Of a stretch of DNA of 35,288 nt, positions 4,665-28,634 are shown one piece after another; position 1 is the stretch's first letter; every line of letters begins with the position of its first letter. The DNA lies in assembly GCA_905235605.1 (NCBI GenBank), contig CAJOMF010000024.1, positions 1 to 35,288 of the forward strand, read 5' to 3'. A model generated the notes under the pieces. That model made no database searches and was not told the DNA's origin. It was given only the letters and a program-made list of their open reading frames with translations. This DNA comes from an uncultured bacterium. GTDB taxonomy: Bacteria; UBP6; UBA1177. The position numbers and the translations under genes were made by a program.

Positions 4665-5702
4665 TCAATAAATTATCTTAAAATCATCAAAGCTTACATC
4701 AAAATCTGCACCGGAACCTGTCCTGAAAGAGAGGCGGCACAGCTGATTCCGCCAAAAATCTTCCGTCATCTCGTCACCGAATTCGATCGAGATGCCTGTC
4801 CAGTCTGAGATCTCGATCTGATTGTAAGAATAATTGCTTGATTTGATAAAAGTTTTTGTATCATCTGCATATTTGTATTTTAAACTGTTTTCCCCGCATA
4901 CGAGCTCGGATGCAATTTTTGACAGAGCACCTGTTTTTAACTTGAATTCGATCCTCTGAGGGAGCGGAGTTTCTGGAAATGTTTCAAACTCATCGGATTC
5001 AAATCCCGGCTTGTTCCTGCTGTTCTGCGGCTGAGTAACCCTGAGGGCTGACTCTCCGTTTCCTGAAGTTTCCTTCTCTAATTTCAGTGTTGCCAAAGCA
5101 CCTTCGCTCTTCTTCCATCCGAGCGGTAAATCATCGACCCAATTCTGCATATTTCCGTTAATAAATTGAGGTTCATTCTGGTTTGGCAGCTGCTCATCAG
5201 AATCGGCAGTTTCTTCATGATCATCATCCGCAGAAGGATCGGTATCTTCATCAAGATCGGCAGTCTCTTCATGATCATCGTCCGCAGAAGGATCGGTATC
5301 TTCATCAAGATCGGCAGTTTCTTCATGATCATCGTCCGCAGAAGGATCGGTATCTTCATCAAGATCGGCAGTTTCTTCAGGATCGTCATCCTCAGAAGGA
5401 TCAGGATATTCCCCCTCTGAAAAATCGAAATCCTGAGATTCGCCATCATCATTTTTCCCGGCAAAATCACTGTCATTCTGCTGATTGTGGTTGTTTTCAT
5501 CTTCCGAATCGGCTCCTGCATTGTCAGAATCGTTTGTTTCATGGCTGCTGTCGTAGCTGTCAGAGTCCGAAATGTCAGAATCTGATTCGTAATCGTCAGC
5601 CTGTGATGCAGAGTTGCTCCCCATATCAGGTTTATCAACACCGCAGGAAAACAGCAAAAGTGTAATTGCTGAACTTAAAAAATAAATTTTAAAAATTTTC
5701 AC
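4665..5702 (-). CDS. Asp/Glu-rich surface lipoprotein with jelly-roll-like C-terminal domain
   Basis: This is a 345-residue predicted lipoprotein. Lys residues at the N-terminus are followed by a hydrophobic stretch and lipobox LLFSC (Cys20). GTG at 5702-5700 is chosen because AAAGGAGG lies 4 bases upstream; an ATG two bases earlier runs straight into TGA. Residues ~30-175 are a very acidic linker containing four 18-residue repeats (DPSADDDHEETADLDEDT type). The rest starts with FINGNMQNWVDDLPLGWKK and ends with DVSFDDFKIIY, a pattern typical of carbohydrate-binding-like beta-sandwich modules. The likely site is the cell surface, with the acidic stalk lifting the domain off the membrane. No enzymatic residues are recognised. 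The gene is convergent with the acyltransferase, 16 bases apart. Confidence 0.82.
   Translation of the reverse strand: MKIFKIYFLSSAITLLLFSCGVDKPDMGSNSASQADDYESDSDISDSDSYDSSHETNDSDNAGADSEDENNHNQQNDSDFAGKNDDGESQDFDFSEGEYPDPSEDDDPEETADLDEDTDPSADDDHEETADLDEDTDPSADDDHEETADLDEDTDPSADDDHEETADSDEQLPNQNEPQFINGNMQNWVDDLPLGWKKSEGALATLKLEKETSGNGESALRVTQPQNSRNKPGFESDEFETFPETPLPQRIEFKLKTGALSKIASELVCGENSLKYKYADDTKTFIKSSNYSYNQIEISDWTGISIEFGDEMTEDFWRNQLCRLSFRTGSGADFDVSFDDFKIIY
5202..5417 (-). repeat. 54-bp tandem repeat inside the lipoprotein gene, four units
   Basis: Units begin at 5202, 5256, 5310 and 5364 with a strict 54-base period (marker ATCGGCAGT on the + strand). The middle two are almost identical, differing at a few third positions, and the outer two are more diverged. 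Each unit encodes 18 acidic residues, so copy-number change keeps the frame and alters stalk length only. Confidence 0.95.
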
Positions 5703-10562: not shown

Positions 10563-11393
10563 ATGAAAAAAGTATGTTTTCTGATTTTACTGTTCCTCGC
10601 TTTTTCGATTTCCGCGGCAGAAAAAAAGCCCGAAGACTTTTCTCTTTTGCGGAAAGTGACCGACGGGACTTTGAATTATTCAACGTTCGAGCTCGTTATC
10701 ACCGGAAGCGGCATCCCCGAAACTAACGTCACGAACCTCAACTCCGCACGAATAACGGCTGAGAAGGCTGCTGCGGCCAACGCAAGGCTGAAGATCGTGA
10801 AGGTGCTTTCCGGGCTCACTCTTTCGGGCAAAACGAAAGTCGGGGCATACTTCGAGGAGAAAGGGGATCCCGATTTTGTTGACAGGCTCGTAAATGTTGC
10901 AGACATAAAGGATGTGACTTACGAAAGGTTTTATTCCAATTCATCGGTCGATGTGACTTATAAAGTCAATGTTTCCGGATATTTGCGTAAAATAGTCGAA
11001 GAGGGACGCGCAGAGTTTTCAAACAAAAAGGAGACTGTTGCAGCCTCTGGCGACGAAGCGGCAAAGACGAAATCAGTTTTAGTCATAAATTTCAAAACGA
11101 AAGTCGAACCCCAGCTTTTCTTTTCCGTTGTTACCGAAAAAGGTGAAAAAATCTACGACATTTCGATGAGTAAAGAGACCAGCAAAAGCCCGGTATCACT
11201 TTTTTTCGCAAAGAAAAAGGCTGAAAAACTGATTGAAAAAGAAAAACTTGAAGGTGAAATCCTTTCAGTTCCCGCATTTAAGATCAGTGGCTCCGAGATC
11301 GTTATAAAAAACAGCGATGCCGGAAAAATAGCGGCTGAACTCAAAAAAGAGTGCTTCGAAGAAGGAAAGATCGTTGTCGTTTCGGCGGAATAG
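10563..11393 (+). CDS. Exported LPP20/FlgT-like protein
   Basis: This is a 276-residue secreted protein with signal peptide KKVCFLILLFLAFSISAAEKK. Residues ~35-140 follow the LPP20/FlgT N-terminal pattern: a G-x-G-x-P strand (ITGSGIPET), then a helix of repeated Ala (SARITAEKAAAANARLKIVKVLSGL), then strands with alternating hydrophobic residues and a second YKVNVSGYLRKIVEEG. The C-terminal half has SVLVINFKTKVEPQLFFSV and a final NSDAGKIAAELKKECFEEGKIVVV. FlgT/LPP20 proteins are periplasmic or outer-membrane-associated, some in flagellar or curli-like secretion settings. No flagellar gene is nearby, so the role is unknown. The two lipoproteins at 19048 and 20258 share parts of this plan. Confidence 0.65.
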   Translation: MKKVCFLILLFLAFSISAAEKKPEDFSLLRKVTDGTLNYSTFELVITGSGIPETNVTNLNSARITAEKAAAANARLKIVKVLSGLTLSGKTKVGAYFEEKGDPDFVDRLVNVADIKDVTYERFYSNSSVDVTYKVNVSGYLRKIVEEGRAEFSNKKETVAASGDEAAKTKSVLVINFKTKVEPQLFFSVVTEKGEKIYDISMSKETSKSPVSLFFAKKKAEKLIEKEKLEGEILSVPAFKISGSEIVIKNSDAGKIAAELKKECFEEGKIVVVSAE

Positions 11394-17191: not shown

Positions 17192-18994
17192 ATGAAAAAA
17201 ATCCTGCTCATAATGGTTTGTTTAATATCGGTTTTTCAGCTTTCCGCCGTTGAAGATGCCTCTCTTATTAAATCCGACGAGACTCAGAAAAGTTACGAGC
17301 GCAAAGCTGTCATGGGCTTCGGTGACATCGGTTTCATGCAGGATTCGGTGAGGATCCCGATGCGCTACTGCGAGATCAACGAAAAAGGCGAGGGAAGATG
17401 CATCCCGTGGAGTTTCAAAATAAACTATCCGCTTGACAGCAGGGAAAAACTCAAGGCGGCGAAGATTTTCTACCAGTGGACGATTACAAACCGCTTCGAC
17501 AAGATAATCCTGGGTGACAACGAGGCTTTCATGCGGACTAAAGGGGGCGAAGTGAGGATCGGTCTCGGAGGGCGCATCCCGACTTTCCGCTCCGGAACGA
17601 GCGACAGGGAGTCTTTCAGAAGACATCTCGAGCACTATCTCAATTCGGATGTGAGAAAAGTTTTCGGAAACCTGCTTGATGCAAGTGCGGAGCAGAGGTA
17701 TTCCGAGCTTTCCGAGAAAGAGCAGGAGACTTTCATGGTGACGAAGGCTAAGGAACTCGGTCTTTCGGCGGCTTTTGTCAAAAATCTCCTCAACTCATCT
17801 TATGTTTTTGCGGCTCACGTCGCACCTATCGGAGGAGACGGCAGAGTCATCCGCTCCAAACACAAATCGGCGGTAAAAGGGCTTCACTACTATTCCTTCG
17901 ATGTCGAGATCGAGCTTTCGGTGAACGTCGTTTTCATGATCTACCGCTACAACTATGAAAAGAAGCGCTTCGAGCATTACGGCGATATCGTGGGTCATTC
18001 AGGCAGGATCTCAGGTTCTACCGATACCGCACTTCAGATAATCCCGACACCTGCGCAGGTAATGTCAGTTTTCAACGATGTTTTCCGCACTGCGGTCAAA
18101 GCTGCTTCGGTGAACGCAAACTTTCAGCTGAAACAGGACGACAATTTCGCGATTTTCATGCCTGTCCGCTCAACTGACGGCAAAAAGATCGAAAGCGAGT
18201 TCGGAGTTATGGAAGATATCCGTGTCGACCATCCTTTCGAAATCTTTGAAACGGTTGACGGAAAAACTCAGCGCAAAGGTTTTGCCCGTGCCAGCGATGT
18301 TTCTCTAAACTGTAAAGACGGTGGCCAACCTACAATTATCAAAGTTACGAACGGTGACGCTGAAGAGGGCGACCAGCTGCGCGAATATCCGTGGACTGGA
18401 CTTTATTTCAACCTCGGTTTCGAGACGGATTCTGTCAAAATTATCGGAAATAAAAGCGGTGATAATGCCGGAAACATGTTCGCTTCTCCTGGGCTTCACC
18501 TCGGAGTTGATGTCGATTTCGGCTATGTCATGAACAGACCTGCTTTGAGCGAATTTTATTTCAGAGCGTTTCTCGATCTCAATTTCGGATTGAATTCCGA
18601 CAGCGAAAATGTAGAACCGGATCTTTTGGGCTGGTTCGGCGGCGGAGTCGGCATCGCAAAAAGGTTTTATACCGGCGGAGCGGGATTTTTCATAGCTCCG
18701 GCTATTGACGCGTCATACCATGGCACTCTGAATGACAACTGGGATTTCCAGCGTTTTGTCGTTACGCCGCAGCTGCATTTCGGTTTCAGCGCAACTCCGA
18801 GTTTTGACTTCATCATCAAAGGAGGTTGGAATGTCGGATTTCTCACAAATGCCGAATACGAAAAAGAGGATATTTCCGCAAGATATTCGGGTTTTGTCCA
18901 CGGTCTTTACGTATCGCTTGATTTCAATTTTCATCTTCCGGTCGTAGGTGCGATGGCGAGAATGTACAAGCCGGCTTCGAATGCGTGCAGATAA
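17192..18994 (+). CDS. Exported protein with C-terminal outer-membrane-type beta-barrel
   Basis: This 600-residue protein has a signal peptide (KKILLIMVCLISVFQLSAVED). ATG 17192 follows TGAGGAGATC. Residues ~20-370 form a soluble part with no family I recognise: IPMRYCEINEKGEGRC, KAAKIFYQWTITNRFDKIILGD and the helical NSDVRKVFGNLLDASAEQRY. A short SH3-like module (RVDHPFEIFETVDGKTQRKGF) follows near residue 350. From ~400 to the end it shows alternating-residue strands with aromatic edges (WTGLYFNLGFETDSV, ALSEFYFRAFLDLNFGL, HGLYVSLDFNFHLP), typical of an 8-stranded porin-like barrel. It heads an operon with two lipoproteins. Confidence 0.75.
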   Translation: MKKILLIMVCLISVFQLSAVEDASLIKSDETQKSYERKAVMGFGDIGFMQDSVRIPMRYCEINEKGEGRCIPWSFKINYPLDSREKLKAAKIFYQWTITNRFDKIILGDNEAFMRTKGGEVRIGLGGRIPTFRSGTSDRESFRRHLEHYLNSDVRKVFGNLLDASAEQRYSELSEKEQETFMVTKAKELGLSAAFVKNLLNSSYVFAAHVAPIGGDGRVIRSKHKSAVKGLHYYSFDVEIELSVNVVFMIYRYNYEKKRFEHYGDIVGHSGRISGSTDTALQIIPTPAQVMSVFNDVFRTAVKAASVNANFQLKQDDNFAIFMPVRSTDGKKIESEFGVMEDIRVDHPFEIFETVDGKTQRKGFARASDVSLNCKDGGQPTIIKVTNGDAEEGDQLREYPWTGLYFNLGFETDSVKIIGNKSGDNAGNMFASPGLHLGVDVDFGYVMNRPALSEFYFRAFLDLNFGLNSDSENVEPDLLGWFGGGVGIAKRFYTGGAGFFIAPAIDASYHGTLNDNWDFQRFVVTPQLHFGFSATPSFDFIIKGGWNVGFLTNAEYEKEDISARYSGFVHGLYVSLDFNFHLPVVGAMARMYKPASNACR

Positions 18995-19047
18995 AGAGGT
19001 AAATATGTTCTGGTTTGACTATAAATTTTTTTGATTCGGAGGAAAAA

Positions 19048-20250
19048 ATGAGAAAATTTTTGGTATTCATGCTTGTTTTGGCGCTTTCTTTGGCCGGTTG
19101 TTCCAATAAGTGCGATTTCAAAAAACAGCAGACACCGGCTTTGTACGAGGCTTCTTTTGTTGAAAGTTCCGGAACGGGCGAAATGATGATCAAGGCGACA
19201 GGTATAGGCTGCTCGGTCGAAGAGGCACTGGAAGAAGCCAAAAAGACTGCCGTCTGGTTCGTTTTGGAAGGGGGTGACAAGCCGATCCTCAAGACTCAGG
19301 CTGAAAAAACGAGAGCTTACGGGCTTGAGATCCAGATGTATGCTGATCCGGTGAAGTATATCCGCTGGGTTTCCGACATTAAATCGAAGAAAAAAGAGGG
19401 AGGCAAAACGAAGGTCACATATCTTTTCAAGATCGATGTAGCGATGATCCAGCAGGAACTTGCGGCGGCTGAAATAATCACGTCTACTGAGGATTTGGGT
19501 GAGAGCATCGGTCTTCCGACGATCTCGGTTTTTGCCGACAAGGGCGGCGATTTTGCGAAAACTGCGGTCAGTGCGCTTCAGGAATACCTGCAGGACAACT
19601 CTTTTGAAGTTTACAAGGCGGCTCAGGGCGACACTGTCAACAAGATCGTTGCAAAAATGGCTGCTCTCGAAAGTGCCGAGACCGATCCGATGCATGACAT
19701 GGCTTTGAGTTTCGGAACAGACATCTACGCGAAAGTCAACTATTCCGGTGTTAACGGAAGTGTCGGCACGAAGGCATCGGTCGCAGTCGAAGTTTTTGAA
19801 ACGGCGACCGGCAAAATGCTCGGAACGACGACCGGATATTCGGCTGAAAGGCGTGTTACCGACGCGAATGCACTCGTTCAGGAAGCGGTAAACGATGCAA
19901 GCGCCAAAGTCATCAGCCAGATCCGCAAAGAGTGGATGAAAATGAGCAAAAAAGGGAAACCTTTCAAACTTGTAGTCCTTTCCAACAGCACTGACGGCGC
20001 GGCAGTGAGTGATGCGGTTTACGCTGTGCTTAAAGGACTTTCAACAAAGCCGGTAAAACCGCAGGCGGGCGGCAAATCGACATTTTCATACATCGTTTAT
20101 CTCAAGGATATTCCTAATGCTTACGAGTTTTTCATGGCTCTCAAAAAGGCTTACAGCGGCCCGGGACAGCTTGAGAAAGTGAGCGACGCAGGATCTTTCC
20201 TCGTCATCAAGGCTGCCGGGAACGGAGAAGTCGAACTTGTAATAGAGTAG
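19048..20250 (+). CDS. Lipoprotein related to the LPP20/DUF6175-type fold
   Basis: This is a 400-residue lipoprotein with lipobox LSLAGC (Cys16). ATG 19048 has CGGAGGAAAA just upstream; an open frame from 19015 lacks this. Residues ~35-140 contain GTGEMMIKATGIGCSVEEALEEAKKTAVWFVLEGG, the G-x-G then Ala-rich helix then 'AV..VL..G' pattern of LPP20/DUF6175-like domains, ending in TKVTYLFKIDVAMIQQEL. Residues ~155-290 (TISVFADKGGDFAKTAVSALQEYLQDN and FGTDIYAKVNYSG) look like a CsgG/TolB-N-like alpha/beta domain that senses or binds other secreted proteins. It is the middle gene of the barrel-lipoprotein-lipoprotein operon. The family match is a pattern judgment. Confidence 0.68.
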   Translation: MRKFLVFMLVLALSLAGCSNKCDFKKQQTPALYEASFVESSGTGEMMIKATGIGCSVEEALEEAKKTAVWFVLEGGDKPILKTQAEKTRAYGLEIQMYADPVKYIRWVSDIKSKKKEGGKTKVTYLFKIDVAMIQQELAAAEIITSTEDLGESIGLPTISVFADKGGDFAKTAVSALQEYLQDNSFEVYKAAQGDTVNKIVAKMAALESAETDPMHDMALSFGTDIYAKVNYSGVNGSVGTKASVAVEVFETATGKMLGTTTGYSAERRVTDANALVQEAVNDASAKVISQIRKEWMKMSKKGKPFKLVVLSNSTDGAAVSDAVYAVLKGLSTKPVKPQAGGKSTFSYIVYLKDIPNAYEFFMALKKAYSGPGQLEKVSDAGSFLVIKAAGNGEVELVIE

Positions 20251-20257
20251 GGGTTAA

Positions 20258-21490
20258 ATGAAAAAGGTGCTTTTTTATAACTCGCTGTTTTTACTGCTTG
20301 TTTTTGTTGTTTCGTGTGCTACTGCAGCAAAATCGGAAAATTATGAAAGCGTTCGACAAAATGCCTCGGATTCTTTTGCCGGACTTGAAGGAAAAGAAGC
20401 GGCTTTTGATGAGGCGGAGAGCGCTGACGATGCTCTTTTTGCGGCAGTTCTTAAAGGAACGGGAACCGGGGAAGACGAAAAATCGGCTAAAAACGACGCT
20501 CTTTCTCAGCTTGCGAATTCAATAGTGACAGACATAGTTTCCAAAACTGTGATAACGCAGGAGGAGCGCGACGGCAAATATACCGAATCGCTTAAAAACG
20601 ACATACTTATCCGCTCGAATGTCTTTTTGAAAGGGGTCCTTTTTACAAAACCTGCAAAAAAGGAGGGATTTGTTGAAGTAACGGCGTTTATGACTCGTAA
20701 TTCGACAGTAAATACGATAACTTATCTTCTTAAAACCATGCCGGAAGACATTGAGGCGCTTCCGCCGGAAAAGTATGACGACGTTCTCACGATGATCTAT
20801 CTTTCGTATTCGCTGCTTTATGCCGTAAGCGACAGGCAGGTTCCCGAAAGAGAAAAGTACATTGCGGCGCTGAGTGCTCTGAAAGCCGAAATAGAAAAGC
20901 TCGCTTCTCACGGTTCCGTCTATTTTCAGGCTGGTTCCGATGTAAAAGGAGAAGTTGAGATTGGCGGAAAATCATACGAACTCAATAAAAAGATATTTCT
21001 TAAACCGGCAAGCTATAAATTTTCAGTAAAATTAGATGGTTATAGAAATGTCGGCGGTTCGTTGGATCTTTTTAAAGGAGATAAAAAATTTGTAGAAATC
21101 CCGCTTGTTCCCGAACTTTCAGACAAAAAAGAGATATTTCTGAGTGTCGAAAGTCAGGTTGAAATGACCGGGGAAATCGAAAAGGCGCTTCTTGATTTCG
21201 GCATCGTTCCGACGCAGAAAAAGGAGCTGCCGCATCAGGTTTCAGTTGTTGTCAAAACTGCTTCAGTCCGAGTCGAAGGCTATGAAAGAATAACAGTTGC
21301 AGTCGATATCGACACGTTTAAAAACGGTGAAAAATTCAAAATCTCGCACTATGACCACAAACCGTTTTTTGTTACAGCTGAGAATAAAGACGAAAAAGTG
21401 AAGGAAGAGAGTCGGAAAGTCGCTCTCGCAGTCGTAAAAAAGTTCCTTTCCTCAATAGATCTCAGAGCGTTTTTCGACGTTCCGGAGTAA
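20258..21490 (+). CDS. LPP20-like lipoprotein with PEGA-like domain
   Basis: This 410-residue lipoprotein has lipobox FVVSC (Cys20). Residues ~65-165 have the LPP20 pattern KGTGTGEDEKSAKNDALSQLANSIVTDIV and a second half FVEVTAFMTRNSTVNTITYLL. Residues ~225-290 look like a PEGA-type sandwich (SVYFQAGSDVKGEVEIGGKSYELNKKIFLKPASYKFSVKLDGYRNV). The C-terminal ~110 residues have a strand-rich unit with VVVKTASVRVEGYERITVAVDI. It starts 7 bases after the preceding gene, so it shares its transcript. The role is envelope-associated and otherwise unknown. Confidence 0.72.
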   Translation: MKKVLFYNSLFLLLVFVVSCATAAKSENYESVRQNASDSFAGLEGKEAAFDEAESADDALFAAVLKGTGTGEDEKSAKNDALSQLANSIVTDIVSKTVITQEERDGKYTESLKNDILIRSNVFLKGVLFTKPAKKEGFVEVTAFMTRNSTVNTITYLLKTMPEDIEALPPEKYDDVLTMIYLSYSLLYAVSDRQVPEREKYIAALSALKAEIEKLASHGSVYFQAGSDVKGEVEIGGKSYELNKKIFLKPASYKFSVKLDGYRNVGGSLDLFKGDKKFVEIPLVPELSDKKEIFLSVESQVEMTGEIEKALLDFGIVPTQKKELPHQVSVVVKTASVRVEGYERITVAVDIDTFKNGEKFKISHYDHKPFFVTAENKDEKVKEESRKVALAVVKKFLSSIDLRAFFDVPE

Positions 21491-23439: not shown

Positions 23440-25809
23440 ATGAAACCGTCGCTTTTTGTTCTGTTTTCATTTTTGTTTCTCACTTTTCCGCTGTTTTCAT
23501 ACCACGACTGTCTGAATGACGAAAATGTAACGGAGGCCTGCATCAGAGAGCTTTTCAAGGCGAACGAATTTGCCCTCGCCGCATCGCATATCGACAAGGC
23601 GGAGTTTGCCTCAAAAACCGATTCGACGATACTGAAGATCGAGCTTTTCATGAAGCTCGCAAGGTATGACGAGACCGAAAAACTGATCAATACTCTGCCG
23701 AACGACATCAGGAACACGCTTTACTACAAAATGATCCTCGTCAAGACTTTTATTGCGCGGAAGCGCTTCAATCAGGCTCTTGAGATAATCGATGAGATCA
23801 AAAGTTCGTATCAGATCTACTATCTTTTCAGCGATCTTGAGTGCATAAAAGGCGATATAGCGCTTTACAGGAAACAGTATGATTCGGCGATCGAATTTTA
23901 CGACAGATGTCTCGACGCGCAGGATAACGGTGCGGCCGCTTTCAACAGGATCCTTGCTCTGGAAAAAAACGGTGAACCGCAGGTCACGTTCCTCAAGGAT
24001 TATGTCGAATATATGGACAGTTACGGCTCTCTTTCGTGGAAAAACCAGGTCGTGGAGAGACTTGTAAAACTAAAGAAGAGCAAAGGTGTGCCGAACTCTT
24101 CTTCGCCTTATTATGTCAGATGGCTTTCGATCATGCGGCGCGAAAACAGGCTTTCTCAGTTTTTCAGCGATGAATATATGACGCTGCCGTATCCTGCAAA
24201 CCTTGAGATCGCAGATTATCTGATGTCGAAAAAAAGATATTCCGATGCGCTGAAGATGCTTGACGACGCCGTTTCAAAGCAGACGAAGGCAAACGATGCG
24301 AAATACAAGCTCGTGAACAAAAAATACAGAGTTCTTAATCAGGCGGGGCGCGAAGTAGAAGCAGCCGATTTTCTGCTCAAATCGTCGGAGGATTTTGCCG
24401 GAACGCAGAAAGACAGGATGAAATTCCTTGCTGCGCTTGTTTACTTCGAAAACGGCATGGCGGAAAAGAGCAAGGAGATCCTCGGCGGGATAGTTGCGAT
24501 GAAGCAGAACTCCAAATATTTCATGCTTTCGCTTTACAAACTGGGACTCATATATCTTTTTGAAGGAAACGACCTTTACGCTTTCACGATGTGGTCGGAG
24601 TTCCTTCTTTCGGAAAAGATGAATTACGACAAATTTGTGGACGGAAAGGGTAGTTATGAAGCGATAACAGGACTCACCGCGCTTCTCGACAGGATAAACG
24701 GCTACTGCGCCGCGCTGTCTGATGTCAATTTCAAGTGTTCGGTCGATGAAAACGGCATTTCCGAAAGCGTCAGCAGCTTCATTTCCTATTACGATTTCAC
24801 CTATTTCCACATAATCGAGCGCGATGAATTCAAAAAGAAACCCGATTTCAGCAACGTCTCGGCAACTTCGCAGAAGTGGCTTGCAAACAAAGCCGAGACC
24901 GGTGCTACGAAAGAGGAGTTCATTGACTCTCTGGGTCAGCTCCCGCCTAAAATAAAGAAGCGTGAGCCCGCTTTTATGATCGACCTTTTTCTGAAAGCCG
25001 ACGATTTTGACGGAGTCGAGTTTTATGTCGATATGATGCGGATCTACACTTCTTACAACGAGGCAAAACACGCGAAAAACGCTTCTTCAATGAAGATCCC
25101 GATGCCGGAAGCACAGATCATTGATGAATTTTCATCCAACTACAAGGATATTCTTTCAAAAATCCACCTTGTCTACAACAAATTTTTCAAAAAAACGGCG
25201 AAAGTGACGAGTTATTACTACAACCAGCTGAGCCCGGATCTCACTTATTCGCCGCACTACGGCAAAAAAGAGGAGTGGCGGCTGCTCTATCCGACGCCTT
25301 ACCTTGAAGTCGTACTCAAACTTGCAGGGGAATTCAACGTTCCGGTCCAGCTGATCTATTCGATAATGCGTGCCGAAACATATTACCGCGAATCACTTTC
25401 ATCGAATGTCGGCGCGCTCGGACTTATGCAGATAATGCCCCAGACATTTGAAAAGATAAGCAAATTCGGCGGGATAAAGATAAAAGATCCGATGGACCCG
25501 TACGACAGCATGAAGGCGTCGGTCTGGTATCTTTCAAAACTTTTAAAGCGCTTCGACAACAACCTTATCGCCGCGACAGCCGCTTACAATGCCGGTCCGC
25601 ACAATGTTTCGGACTGGATCTCACGCTACGGCGGGAAGGAGGCGTATCTTTTTGTCGAAATGATCCCTTTTAAAGAGACCCGTGACTACGTCAAAAAAGT
25701 CATGCGCTTTTACATGATCTACAGCTATATCTACGAAGACGAGTTCTTCAATGTCGGTTTAAACGGCGTTTATGACGTGAATGAAAACCGCGATGTTGTA
25801 AATTTCTGA
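23440..25809 (+). CDS. Soluble lytic murein transglycosylase with TPR-like repeats
   Basis: This 789-residue periplasmic protein has a signal peptide (FVLFSFLFLTFPLFSYHD). It has a long alpha-helical superhelix of TPR-like pairs (residues ~35-470, for example YRKQYDSAIEFYDRCLDAQD and SKKRYSDALKMLDDAVSKQ). The C-terminal SLT domain has catalytic Glu646 (SIMRAETYYRES), NVGALGLMQIMPQT, and ATAAYNAGPHNVSDWI. It cleaves peptidoglycan glycan chains to 1,6-anhydro ends. ATG 23440 has AAGGGGTTCGC upstream. It resembles Slt70 in plan but is longer. It is a separate transcription unit; nothing certain lies in the 129 bases before it. Confidence 0.92.
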   Translation: MKPSLFVLFSFLFLTFPLFSYHDCLNDENVTEACIRELFKANEFALAASHIDKAEFASKTDSTILKIELFMKLARYDETEKLINTLPNDIRNTLYYKMILVKTFIARKRFNQALEIIDEIKSSYQIYYLFSDLECIKGDIALYRKQYDSAIEFYDRCLDAQDNGAAAFNRILALEKNGEPQVTFLKDYVEYMDSYGSLSWKNQVVERLVKLKKSKGVPNSSSPYYVRWLSIMRRENRLSQFFSDEYMTLPYPANLEIADYLMSKKRYSDALKMLDDAVSKQTKANDAKYKLVNKKYRVLNQAGREVEAADFLLKSSEDFAGTQKDRMKFLAALVYFENGMAEKSKEILGGIVAMKQNSKYFMLSLYKLGLIYLFEGNDLYAFTMWSEFLLSEKMNYDKFVDGKGSYEAITGLTALLDRINGYCAALSDVNFKCSVDENGISESVSSFISYYDFTYFHIIERDEFKKKPDFSNVSATSQKWLANKAETGATKEEFIDSLGQLPPKIKKREPAFMIDLFLKADDFDGVEFYVDMMRIYTSYNEAKHAKNASSMKIPMPEAQIIDEFSSNYKDILSKIHLVYNKFFKKTAKVTSYYYNQLSPDLTYSPHYGKKEEWRLLYPTPYLEVVLKLAGEFNVPVQLIYSIMRAETYYRESLSSNVGALGLMQIMPQTFEKISKFGGIKIKDPMDPYDSMKASVWYLSKLLKRFDNNLIAATAAYNAGPHNVSDWISRYGGKEAYLFVEMIPFKETRDYVKKVMRFYMIYSYIYEDEFFNVGLNGVYDVNENRDVVNF

Positions 25810-25836: not shown

Positions 25837-25864
25837 TTGACAAAATCCTTTTTGTGAGTAATGG
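25837..25864 (+). promoter_or_regulatory. Candidate promoter of the beta-helix lipoprotein pair
   Basis: Consensus TTGACA (25837-25842) is followed after 16 bases by TAATGG (25859-25864), a weak -10. This would place the start near 25871, after the ATG at 25861 and before that at 25906, which supports the shorter protein. Confidence 0.4.
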
Positions 25865-25905
25865 TTAACTGTTGTATTGTTGTTTGTATGTGCGGAGTTA
25901 AGTTT

Positions 25906-26943
25906 ATGTTTGTTTTTATCTTTATTTTTGTTTTATTAAGTTCGTGTTCACAGAATGTTTCTCACGATTATGATTTGCCCGAAGAGTGCGGCGGAAAGTG
26001 CTATGCGGCGCATGACATCAATTCTTTTCAGGATGCTCTTGTAAATTCGGCAGCCGCTTTTTCAAACTGCGTATGCTTGGGGAGCGGAGTTTTCGAAGGT
26101 TCTGTTACAGTGGCAAAACCTCTCCGTATCATTGGCAGGAAAGACGGCTCGACTTATTTGAAAAGACTTGCAATTTCGGATACTTCAGGAGTGGTACTGC
26201 GGGATTTTTCCTTTAAAAACGTCTCTACTGATTCGGCTGCGCTTTTTATTTCCGGCAGCTCTGTCGAAATGGAAAATATCTCTTTTTCGGGAATAAGCGC
26301 GGGTTCCGTTTTCGGCGGTCGCGGAATTGTGATTTCGGGTAAAGAGTCGGAAGTTTTCATAAAAAATTCAAAAATGGAGCGTACTGACGGAACTGGGATC
26401 CTGATAAACGGCGCGCACAAAGTGACTTTGGAAAATGTCGCTCTTTCAAAATGCGGTTTTGCTGCTCTCTGGGCTCAGAATCAAAGTGAAAACAGAGGGT
26501 TTTTGTCAGTTTCAGACAGCAATTTTTCAGATAACGGCGCAACTGCAATCGAAATTCTGGGTAACACAGCGCTTCAAATTTCGGGAAGTTCGATCGAAGG
26601 AGTGAGAAAAAGGGATGTCATGCTTGAAAGCGTGGGTGACGGGATCGTCGTTAAAAATTCTTTTCTTGCGGAAGCAGATTCGATTTTGATTGAAAACAGC
26701 TCGATAAGCGGTTTTCCGCGTGCCGGCATAATCTTAGACGGCGCTGAAGGCTTAACTTCGCTTGGTGCAAAATTCGAAAATCTTTCAGTTTTTTCGGAAA
26801 GCGGAAGTTTCGGGCTCGTCGTGCAGAATGCTGTCGAAGAAGCATCTTTGCGTGAAGGGATAACGCGGAACGATTTTTCGTCTGCAGACCTGAAACTGGA
26901 AGAAGAACTTTTTATAATCGATACTTTCTTTGAACTGCAATGA
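25906..26943 (+). CDS. Right-handed beta-helix lipoprotein
   Basis: This is a 345-residue predicted lipoprotein with lipobox LLSSC (Cys14 from ATG 25906). An ATG at 25861 is open too but lies upstream of the likely transcription start; GCGGAG precedes 25906. After a Cys-rich start (EECGGKCYAAHDINSFQDAL) the body has a Leu/Val-x-Asn/Gly-x-x-ladder of PbH1-type coils: VVLRDFSFKNVSTDSAALFISGSSVEMENISFSGI, VFIKNSKMERTDGTGILI and so on, with FSDNGATAIEILGN. This is the fold of pectate lyases and surface adhesins. No catalytic Asp cluster is obvious. Its stop overlaps the start of the next, similar gene (ATGA). Confidence 0.78.
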   Translation: MFVFIFIFVLLSSCSQNVSHDYDLPEECGGKCYAAHDINSFQDALVNSAAAFSNCVCLGSGVFEGSVTVAKPLRIIGRKDGSTYLKRLAISDTSGVVLRDFSFKNVSTDSAALFISGSSVEMENISFSGISAGSVFGGRGIVISGKESEVFIKNSKMERTDGTGILINGAHKVTLENVALSKCGFAALWAQNQSENRGFLSVSDSNFSDNGATAIEILGNTALQISGSSIEGVRKRDVMLESVGDGIVVKNSFLAEADSILIENSSISGFPRAGIILDGAEGLTSLGAKFENLSVFSESGSFGLVVQNAVEEASLREGITRNDFSSADLKLEEELFIIDTFFELQ

Positions 26944-28634
26944 TAGTGTTTGTTATTGTTTTTATTGCGCTTTCTCTCTTTTCATGCGGCGGAGTTTCCG
27001 AAAATGTTCCGGTAGAAAAGGAAGATTTTGATGAAATTAATGATGAAGCTATTGAAAAGTGCGTTGAAAACTCCGTTTCATATCAAAGGCCGGAATTGCC
27101 TCAAAAGCCGGAAATTGCTGAAATAAAGAAATACGGCGGAAATTCCGAATGCATTCCTCTACCTGACGCTGAAAGCGGAGAATTGATTTTAGGAGAAGGC
27201 TGTTTTTCGGGCTGTATCAAAGCAGAAAACAAACTCAGAATCTCTGGAAAGGGTGCGGAAAATACGATAATTGTCTGTAATGATGAAGAAAAACAGGCGG
27301 TTATTGAAGTCGAACAAAATGCGGAAGTGACACTTGAAAATGTTTCTATTTCAGGGAATGTCCGCTGCATTTTTGCTGAAAACGGAAGCAGGACAACTGT
27401 TAAAAAGAGCGTTCTTTCGCACTGCGCGAAAGGGGGGATAAACATTTGTCCCGATGAAGCCGGATGCCGCGCCGATCTTACGGTAACTGACAGTTTTATA
27501 GGCGATATCGACGAAGCTGCATCAGGGATAAGTTACGGGATTTCTTTCGGAAACGGTACTTTGAGCGTTTCAGGAAGCATGATTTCCGGTGTCAATTCTT
27601 TCGGAATAGCGGTCTGGGGCGAGAGCGGCAATTCGAATAAAATAAATATGGAAAATTCCGTGATATCAGGCGTTTACGGTGGCTTGAGAAGTTATGAAGG
27701 GCTCGGCTTTTATGCTGAAAACTCTGCCGACATAGTGATAAAAAAGAGTTCGATTTCAGATACGGCGACTTCATTTGTTTTTGTATCTTCGGAAAGTGAT
27801 GAAATAAATCTGAAACTTATTGATTTTACTGCCGAAAACATTCTTGAAACATTGGAAGAGCAGGGAGGAATTGTTCTTGACGGCAGGGTTAAAGGCTGTT
27901 TTGAGCGGATTTCAATGGAAATGAGCCGCGGAAACGGAATTTTTTCACGCGGAGCAGTGCTTTACGCCGAAGATCTGGCTGTAAAATCAGTTTTTTCTGA
28001 CGGTTTGGAAGAGAACGGTTTCGCTCTGCAGCTTGTTGACGGAAGCGAAAGTTTTATAAAGCGCCTTTCTGTAAATTCAGCAGAAAAGGCGGGGATCCTG
28101 CTCGACGGAGTGTGTAGCGCTGATATTGAGGATTTTGAAATTATTTCAACAAAATCTGATAGTTATACAGGGGAATTCGGAGTCGGTGCGGCGATTCAGA
28201 ATGGAGCTGCTGCAAGATTTGAAAACGGTCTTTTTTCAGAAAACAGAGAAACGGGAATCCTTGCAGTAAGTGCTGAAATTTCTTTGAAAAATGTAGAAAT
28301 CAAAAACACTCTGCCGCGCAGATGCACAGAAAATAAAAACTGTGTTTTTGCCCCGAAAACCGATTTCGGTCACGGAATATCGCTCTATTCTTCATCGCTT
28401 CTCAGATTCGACGCAATGACCATTTTCAATAACAACAACGGCTTGAACATTTCTGATTCAGAGCTGCTTAGTTTCGGCTCGAAAAAGCTCTTCTTCGGAA
28501 ACAACATGACTGCTGTCAATGCATGGAATATCAATGATTTCAATATGTTGGAAGAAAACCTCTCAAATTCTTCATTCTGCGGGAATGGTTCGGTCTTCAC
28601 TTCCGATTCGCAACCTGTTAGGGATGGTCTGTAA
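26940..28634 (+). CDS. Right-handed beta-helix lipoprotein, larger paralogue
   Basis: This 564-residue lipoprotein has lipobox LSLFSC (Cys16), with no positive residue before the hydrophobic stretch. An acidic linker (residues ~20-60) leads into a beta-helix of ~25 coils: AVIEVEQNAEVTLENVSISG, FAENGSRTTVKKSVLSHCAKGGINI and FFAENSADIVIKKSSISDT-like repeats, with regular N-x-x-I/V and G-I periodicity. It shares the DAFQDAL-to-RISGKGAENTII opening with the upstream gene (compare LRIIGRKDGSTYL), so the pair probably arose by duplication. Cys residues occur in each third (CIPLPDAESGELILGEGCFSGC). The target of the surface helix is unknown. Confidence 0.8.
   Translation: MIVFVIVFIALSLFSCGGVSENVPVEKEDFDEINDEAIEKCVENSVSYQRPELPQKPEIAEIKKYGGNSECIPLPDAESGELILGEGCFSGCIKAENKLRISGKGAENTIIVCNDEEKQAVIEVEQNAEVTLENVSISGNVRCIFAENGSRTTVKKSVLSHCAKGGINICPDEAGCRADLTVTDSFIGDIDEAASGISYGISFGNGTLSVSGSMISGVNSFGIAVWGESGNSNKINMENSVISGVYGGLRSYEGLGFYAENSADIVIKKSSISDTATSFVFVSSESDEINLKLIDFTAENILETLEEQGGIVLDGRVKGCFERISMEMSRGNGIFSRGAVLYAEDLAVKSVFSDGLEENGFALQLVDGSESFIKRLSVNSAEKAGILLDGVCSADIEDFEIISTKSDSYTGEFGVGAAIQNGAAARFENGLFSENRETGILAVSAEISLKNVEIKNTLPRRCTENKNCVFAPKTDFGHGISLYSSSLLRFDAMTIFNNNNGLNISDSELLSFGSKKLFFGNNMTAVNAWNINDFNMLEENLSNSSFCGNGSVFTSDSQPVRDGL

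Follow-up and report, generated by a model that had tools for sequence, protein, structure and literature searches.

Domains of the LPP20/SHS2 class and of the FlgT_M/LptE/CsgG type build the rings of FlgP, FlgT, CsgG, TraT, and PelC, and work on them has centred on the machines of flagella and curli. Most FlgT/CsgG/TraT/PelC-type domains are ring builders, and the membrane strands of CsgG are located at the hairpin position of the FlgT_M-like domain. PEGA and LPP20 domains are frequent among envelope proteins, and eight-strand barrels form no wide pore. The SHS2 domains of FlgP are reported to assemble into concentric rings, and the ability of this family to form rings is linked to a segment inserted after the SHS2 helix, before the second strand (PMC12222027).

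Here, we describe three neighbouring genes (P1, P2, and P3; hereafter the trio) from the window, i.e., the whole 35,288-nucleotide stretch of DNA that was analysed. Their fold classes are known, but their combination outside flagella seems to be unreported: a predicted FlgT_M-like domain fused to an eight-strand barrel, alongside a DUF6175 lipoprotein and a protein of the LPP20-PEGA-LptE/CsgG type. In the open-access literature, no paper joining LPP20 with PEGA or CsgG with "PEGA domain" was found, nor was DUF6175 or FlgT together with "LPHT ring", in line with the original prediction that the set is undescribed. That this set is conserved in an order lacking FliF suggests that such ring-building domains are used there in an envelope structure of another kind; the three genes offer a handle for seeking that structure, and DUF6175 gains its first gene context.

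Gene order of the trio in related genomes

The three envelope genes lie next to each other on the same strand, as predicted from the sequence, with gaps of 53 bases (P1-P2) and 7 bases (P2-P3) (Table 1). For P2, the ATG at 19048 was preferred as the start, which gives MRKFLVFMLVLALSLAGC with the lipobox at the end of the signal peptide; an in-frame TTG is present upstream, at 19015. The result of a promoter and terminator scan was near chance.

Table 1 Positions and parts of the features described (window positions, unless a locus is named)
Feature	Coordinates	Strand	Description
P1	17192-18994	+	600 aa; Sec signal peptide, soluble domain, predicted 8-strand outer-membrane barrel, tail
P1 parts (residues, model numbering)			soluble domain ~33-323; low-confidence part ~320-402; predicted barrel ~397-584; 17-residue tail with conserved Cys
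P2	19048-20250	+	400 aa; lipoprotein; DUF6175
P2 parts (residues)			lipobox LSLAGC; putative LPP20/FlgT_N-like N-part; DUF6175 170-310; small C-terminal domain
P3	20258-21490	+	410 aa; LPP20/SHS2, PEGA, and modelled LptE/CsgG/FlgT_M-type domains
P3 parts (residues)			lipobox VVSC; LPP20/SHS2 60-215; PEGA sandwich 219-286; modelled LptE/CsgG/FlgT_M-type domain 287-406
Possible trio partner	10563-11393	+	276-aa Sec-signal protein; homologue of the LPP20 gene heading the f3 cluster
P4	21559-22539		rejected as fourth member
Fourth gene after P3	L094:9429-10328, L095:6182-7111, L096:3288-4181		three genomes of the same family
Protein in place of P1	L082:3189-6278		1029 aa, secreted
Repeat lipoprotein	4665-5702	-	acidic tandem repeats (DPSADDDHEETADLDE type)
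TPR protein	23440-25809	+	789 aa; C-terminal lytic transglycosylase SLT domain
Two adjacent lipoproteins	25861-28634	+	parallel beta-helix look (by eye)

A DNA search gave 15 loci as the nearest relatives of P1, most of them from rumen metagenome genomes and several labelled UBP6. Alignment A1 holds the window and 14 of the 15 loci (the partial L008 was excluded), while A2 and A3 hold the window with 10 and 9 of them, respectively, the others being without the gene, truncated, or frameshifted; the diverse members in A4 (13) and A5 (12) were picked by hand. Whole-genome protein searches covered 61 genomes for P2 and 41 each for P1 and P3. P2 was detected in 25 of the 61, five of which, from family f3, gave weak partial matches only, and P1 and P3 were each found in 20 of the 41, the same 20. 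The complete trio was present in 20 genomes (G000-G019), i.e., every f1 and f2 genome examined. The original prediction had pointed to gene order in related genomes as a check, and here P2 and P3 adjoined each other in all 20 genomes, with P1 immediately 5' of P2 in 16. In the remaining four, P1 was detached, being located on another contig (G008, G009, and G013) or 8 kb off (G019).

The outer neighbours of the trio differ. In four loci sharing most of the neighbourhood of the window (L001, L005, L009, and L013), it stands between a GDP-mannose-dehydratase-like (GMD) gene and P4-RsfS-RlmH, and GMD is the gene 5' of P1 in several genus-level loci; in two genomes of the same family (G016 and G017), it lies 3' of ribosomal protein L17- and rpoA-like genes (all these names were assigned by eye). 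The persistence of the trio amid such variation speaks for a genuine unit, in which P2 and P3 are the most tightly linked. P4 was considered as a fourth member and rejected, since in L010 it stays with RsfS-RlmH where P2-P3 are gone. In G015, G016, and G018, a fourth gene encoding a TolB-N/CsgG-type domain follows P3, and the profile of this family aligned with that of CsgG (96% probability); no such gene was seen after P3 in the loci read from the window's genus.

Two further arrangements were observed. A secreted protein, amidase-like by eye, takes the place of P1 before P2-P3 in L082. Two genomes with a detached P1 (G008 and G013; loci L078 and L079) have P2-P3 pairs that are divergent and lack lipoboxes, which gives the impression of a replacement of the pair.

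Domain composition of the three proteins

P1 was modelled by AlphaFold2 from a 15-sequence alignment (mean pLDDT 63, pTM 0.45). The model contained eight strands at residues 403-583 (block pLDDT 45-87 in the barrel), and VIA-align matched the region ~397-583 to NspA (Z 13.6), the OprF N-domain (Z 12.6), and OmpA (Z 11.9). The hydrophobic alternation of the strands, with strand limits taken from the model, exceeded that of 2000/2000 within-strand shuffles. These results suggest that the C-terminal part of P1 is an OmpA-sized, closed barrel of eight strands, and they agree with the barrel predicted at this end of the protein.

The soluble part of P1 was modelled as a mixed alpha/beta domain (residues 39-314) with long hairpins. 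The top VIA-align match among those listed was FlgT (3w1e; Z 8.0, 157 aligned residues, rmsd 4.0), followed by matches to the LPHT ring (Z 7.9), CT253 (7.9), XCC0632 (7.9), HpaA (7.7), and Cj1090c (7.6), all of which we take to belong to one common fold class. This half of P1 thus appears most like the FlgT middle-domain fold, by fold only, and since a Z of about 8 is modest, a common arrangement may be all that the likeness means. By profile, P1 gave no match in the PDB and no hhalign signal against the CsgG (n=5) or FlgT-like (n=4) proteins of the sister family. This ~350-residue half, described earlier as unrecognised, is not entirely so, in that its model matches the FlgT middle domain and related outer-membrane lipoprotein folds at Z 7.6-8.0. 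CsgG was not among the 50 VIA-align matches listed for P1, and a relation of P1 to CsgG by sequence was set aside in view of the lack of Pfam, PDB profile, and hhalign matches, the fold resemblance alone being kept.

Residues 320-402 of P1 were hardly modelled; a likeness of this part to the SH3 domain of FlgT_C, noticed by eye, was dropped (mostly pLDDT <50, no profile match). Four cysteines (Cys60, 70, 374, and 599) are kept in 18/18 full-length relatives, including the window protein, and Cys599 is in the tail beyond the barrel; our guess is that a 374-599 disulfide might bind this tail to the periplasmic part. P1 paralogues of ~870 residues, with 25-28% identity and additional C-terminal sequence, were seen in L057 and L058 (G018:C30 and G017:C39).

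P2 matched Pfam DUF6175 (PF19672) with 39.5 bits against a cut-off of 23, as did 12/12 diverse members of its family (A5). In one distant relative, CsgG and DUF6175 matches fell on overlapping residues; these findings support the CsgG/TolB-N-like part proposed for P2. Against FlgT-like proteins of the sister family (n=4), hhalign gave an E of 2.7e-5 and 74% probability over profile positions ~109-336. Two of the FlgT-like P2 relatives were scanned; both are above the Pfam FlgT_N cut-off, and one has a CsgG match in addition, which points indirectly, through these relatives, to a putative LPP20/FlgT_N-like N-part in P2. A distant genome holds a standalone 403-aa homologue of P2 (L075) that is alignable over its full length with 26% identity. 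In the PDB, the best P2 matches, a YTH domain (E 0.31) and PelC (E 1.7), were set aside. For these hhalign comparisons, homologues shorter than 580 residues (P1) or 395 residues (P2 and P3), those of at least 640 residues, and X-containing or identical ones were dropped; the P2 set holds the window protein twice, with its two starts, among 19 distinct sequences. Neither P2 nor P3 gave a usable signal against the PEGA (n=3) and LPP20 (n=3) proteins of the sister family.

The P3 model (10 sequences, mean pLDDT 74.5) comprises three domains. The first matched Helicobacter pylori HP1454 (4kzs) by profile (E 0.0025, profile residues 68-136) and by fold (Foldseek E 3.7e-5; VIA-align Z 8.3, with an rmsd of 16.7 across two domains), and we assign it as an LPP20/SHS2 domain related to HP1454. 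Pfam LPP20 (PF02169) stayed below its cut-off (13.1 versus 25.9 bits) and was a weak match in 8/13 members. Of the LPP20-like domains proposed for the two lipoproteins, that of P3 is thus borne out by the HP1454 profile and fold matches, while that of P2 is suggested indirectly by its FlgT-like relatives. The second domain was modelled as a sandwich resembling the transthyretin-like domain of carboxypeptidase D (VIA-align Z 8.9), and PEGA (PF08308) was a weak match in 8/13 P3 members (best E 0.0016; the cut-off of 20.8 bits was not reached); no PEGA match was listed by Pfam for the window P3 itself. The model and the family matches together favour the PEGA-like sandwich of the original prediction.

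The C-terminal domain of P3 was not part of that description. In the model, it appears to have the LptE/CsgG/FlgT_M fold, with VIA-align Z scores of 10.7 for LptE, 10.4 for HpaA, 10.3 for CsgG, 10.1 for TraT, and 8.7 for PelC, as well as 8.4 for the LPHT ring (8z5n). FlgT and HP1454 also align over the first and last parts of P3 with an rmsd >16, so that the domains agree with those of FlgT and HP1454, whereas their relative placement does not. In P3, the segment inserted after the SHS2 helix, before the second strand, was modelled as helices, whereas FlgP has a beta-hairpin there through which its ring forms; a ring built in the manner of FlgP is thus not supported.

Lipoproteins were called by a simple lipobox pattern. 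A clear lipobox was found in 9 of 18 P3 sequences, most of the others looking like ordinary secreted proteins, and among 19 distinct P2 sequences, two have no Cys near the end of the signal peptide and four more have off-pattern boxes. The description of P2 and P3 as two lipoproteins therefore applies to part of the relatives and is no defining feature of the trio.

Related clusters in sister genomes

Comparable parts (LPP20, FlgT-like, CsgG, and PEGA) are held by sister genomes, cut differently. In family f3, two genomes (G020 and G021) have consecutive LPP20, FlgT_N-like, CsgG, PEGA, and FecR-like genes; the Pfam scans of this cluster covered G020, and FecR was named by eye. In G024, LPP20, FlgT_N-like, and CsgG genes are consecutive, a FecR-like gene lies farther along, and no PEGA gene was seen in its ORF list, while G022 has LPP20-like, FlgT-like, and FecR-like genes with no CsgG between them. 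G047, a genome without FliF, holds FlgT_N-like, GNA1162, CsgG, and PEGA genes together. CsgG of the sister clusters scored 107-113 bits in Pfam. The f3 (L076, L097, and L098) and G047 clusters resemble the trio in their compact domain list and in coming from genomes without FliF where tested; unlike the trio, they carry CsgG and PEGA as separate genes. P1 and P3 had no sequence match in family f3, and no barrel gene was seen in the f3 and G047 clusters.

The possible trio partner listed in Table 1 lies 5.8 kb upstream of P1. Its product aligned with the LPP20 protein whose gene opens the f3 cluster (profile probability 98%, E 9e-14) and is itself below Pfam detection.

Comparison with known systems and possible roles

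FliF was not detected in any of the 25 genomes searched from the order, while the same search was positive in 4/14 control genomes and in 3/3 f4 genomes of the same phylum. CsgF was absent from all 28 genomes searched, and no CsgG match over the Pfam cut-off was found in the window's own genome. Pfam FlgT_N, FlgT_M, and FlgT_C had no match in P1, P2, or P3, FlgT_N being found only in P2 relatives. Because FliF (25/25) and CsgF (28/28) are missing, the trio is neither a flagellar H ring nor a curli system, and both were ruled out.

Vibrio FlgT (H ring/LPHT ring; 3w1e and 8z5n) may share its middle-domain fold with the P1 soluble part and the P3 C-terminal domain as modelled, and its FlgT_N occurs in proteins related to P2, but the trio occurs without a flagellum, P1 has a fused barrel, and P3 has an inserted PEGA domain. 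FlgP, Lpp20, and HP1454 of Campylobacter and Helicobacter belong to the same LPP20/SHS2 family as the P3 N-terminal domain; P3 differs in its modelled helical insert, its Pfam LPP20 score below the cut-off, and its non-conserved lipidation. The outer-membrane lipoproteins CsgG, TraT, PelC, and LptE have a fold in common with the P3 C-terminal domain (Z 8.7-10.7), whereas P3 is multi-domain, with no Pfam CsgG match, no sequence relation detected, and no CsgF. OmpA, OprF, and NspA have an eight-strand barrel as modelled in P1 (Z 11.9-13.6); in P1, this barrel follows the FlgT_M-like domain, while an OmpA-type barrel instead precedes an OmpA-C domain. Compared with LptDE, the P1 barrel has eight strands against the large LptD, and the LptE-like fold is seen in P3 only.

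The trio may well be a flagellum-independent, outer-membrane-attached scaffold in the periplasm that is probably an oligomer, perhaps ring-shaped, and is composed of FlgT/FlgP/CsgG-class domains, a reading that we hold with middling confidence. We infer a physical complex of P1, P2, and P3, its oligomerisation, and its role as follows. P1 would be fixed in the outer membrane by its OmpA-type barrel, which would anchor and not conduct, with the FlgT_M-like domain facing the periplasm; P2 and P3, as a partner pair, would join P1 via their LPP20/SHS2 and FlgT_M/LptE/CsgG-type domains, and the PEGA sandwich of P3 could offer an additional binding surface. Such a scaffold might stabilise or tether the outer membrane or form the outer-membrane collar of a predicted trans-envelope machine.

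A general outer-membrane-integrity module or outer membrane-peptidoglycan tether, with no ring or machine, is possible though rather unlikely; P1 would then be an OmpA-like anchor and P2 and P3 envelope maintenance lipoproteins. It would account for an OmpA-type barrel joined to a periplasmic domain, for the PEGA and LPP20 domains common in envelope proteins, and for the presence of the trio in all 20 f1/f2 genomes examined, as expected of a housekeeping role; however, Pfam finds no peptidoglycan-binding domain in the three proteins, and their FlgT/CsgG/TraT/PelC-type domains belong mostly to ring builders. We consider it distinctly unlikely that P1 serves as a channel for export or assembly, of the curli type or for polysaccharide, that is gated or plugged by the lipoproteins P2 and P3, as in LptDE, PelBC, and CsgG. 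The closeness of the P3 C-terminal domain to LptE, CsgG, TraT, and PelC, as well as the long hairpins of the P1 FlgT_M-like domain, where CsgG has its membrane strands, would fit such a channel, but an OmpA-sized barrel of eight strands is too narrow for a wide channel, which speaks against P1 exporting on its own; the lack of CsgF in the 28 genomes searched and of a Pfam CsgG match in the window's own genome, together with a trio that itself lacks a substrate or synthase gene, is also evidence against such a channel. Of the export or anchoring complexes that the original prediction had in mind, anchoring is thus the better fit, and export is unlikely for a lone eight-strand barrel.

Very doubtful, in our judgement, is the idea that the functional unit consists of P2 and P3 only, P1 being an independent outer-membrane protein that just happens to be found next to them often. 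P1 is indeed found elsewhere in 4/20 genomes, and one genome has the 1029-aa secreted protein before P2 instead; against this, P1 is directly 5' of P2 in the other 16, across different genomic contexts, and the 20 P1-positive genomes among the 41 are the P3-positive ones. Taking the scaffold further, a speculative and, in our opinion, unlikely extension is that the trio forms the outer-membrane collar of a predicted flagellum-independent trans-envelope machine, with rings of the FlgT/FlgP/CsgG type anchored by an integral barrel and not by lipids alone, and that the trio and the sister CsgG-PEGA cluster are among several rearrangements of an ancestral outer-membrane ring kit that was also the source of flagellar H rings and curli gates.

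Other genes were also noticed in the window (Table 1). D/E-rich lipoproteins similar to the acidic repeat lipoprotein occur in related loci. The two adjacent lipoproteins have the look of right-handed parallel beta-helices, and the TPR protein, whose SLT domain scored 91.9 bits in Pfam, is conserved near the trio in several loci.
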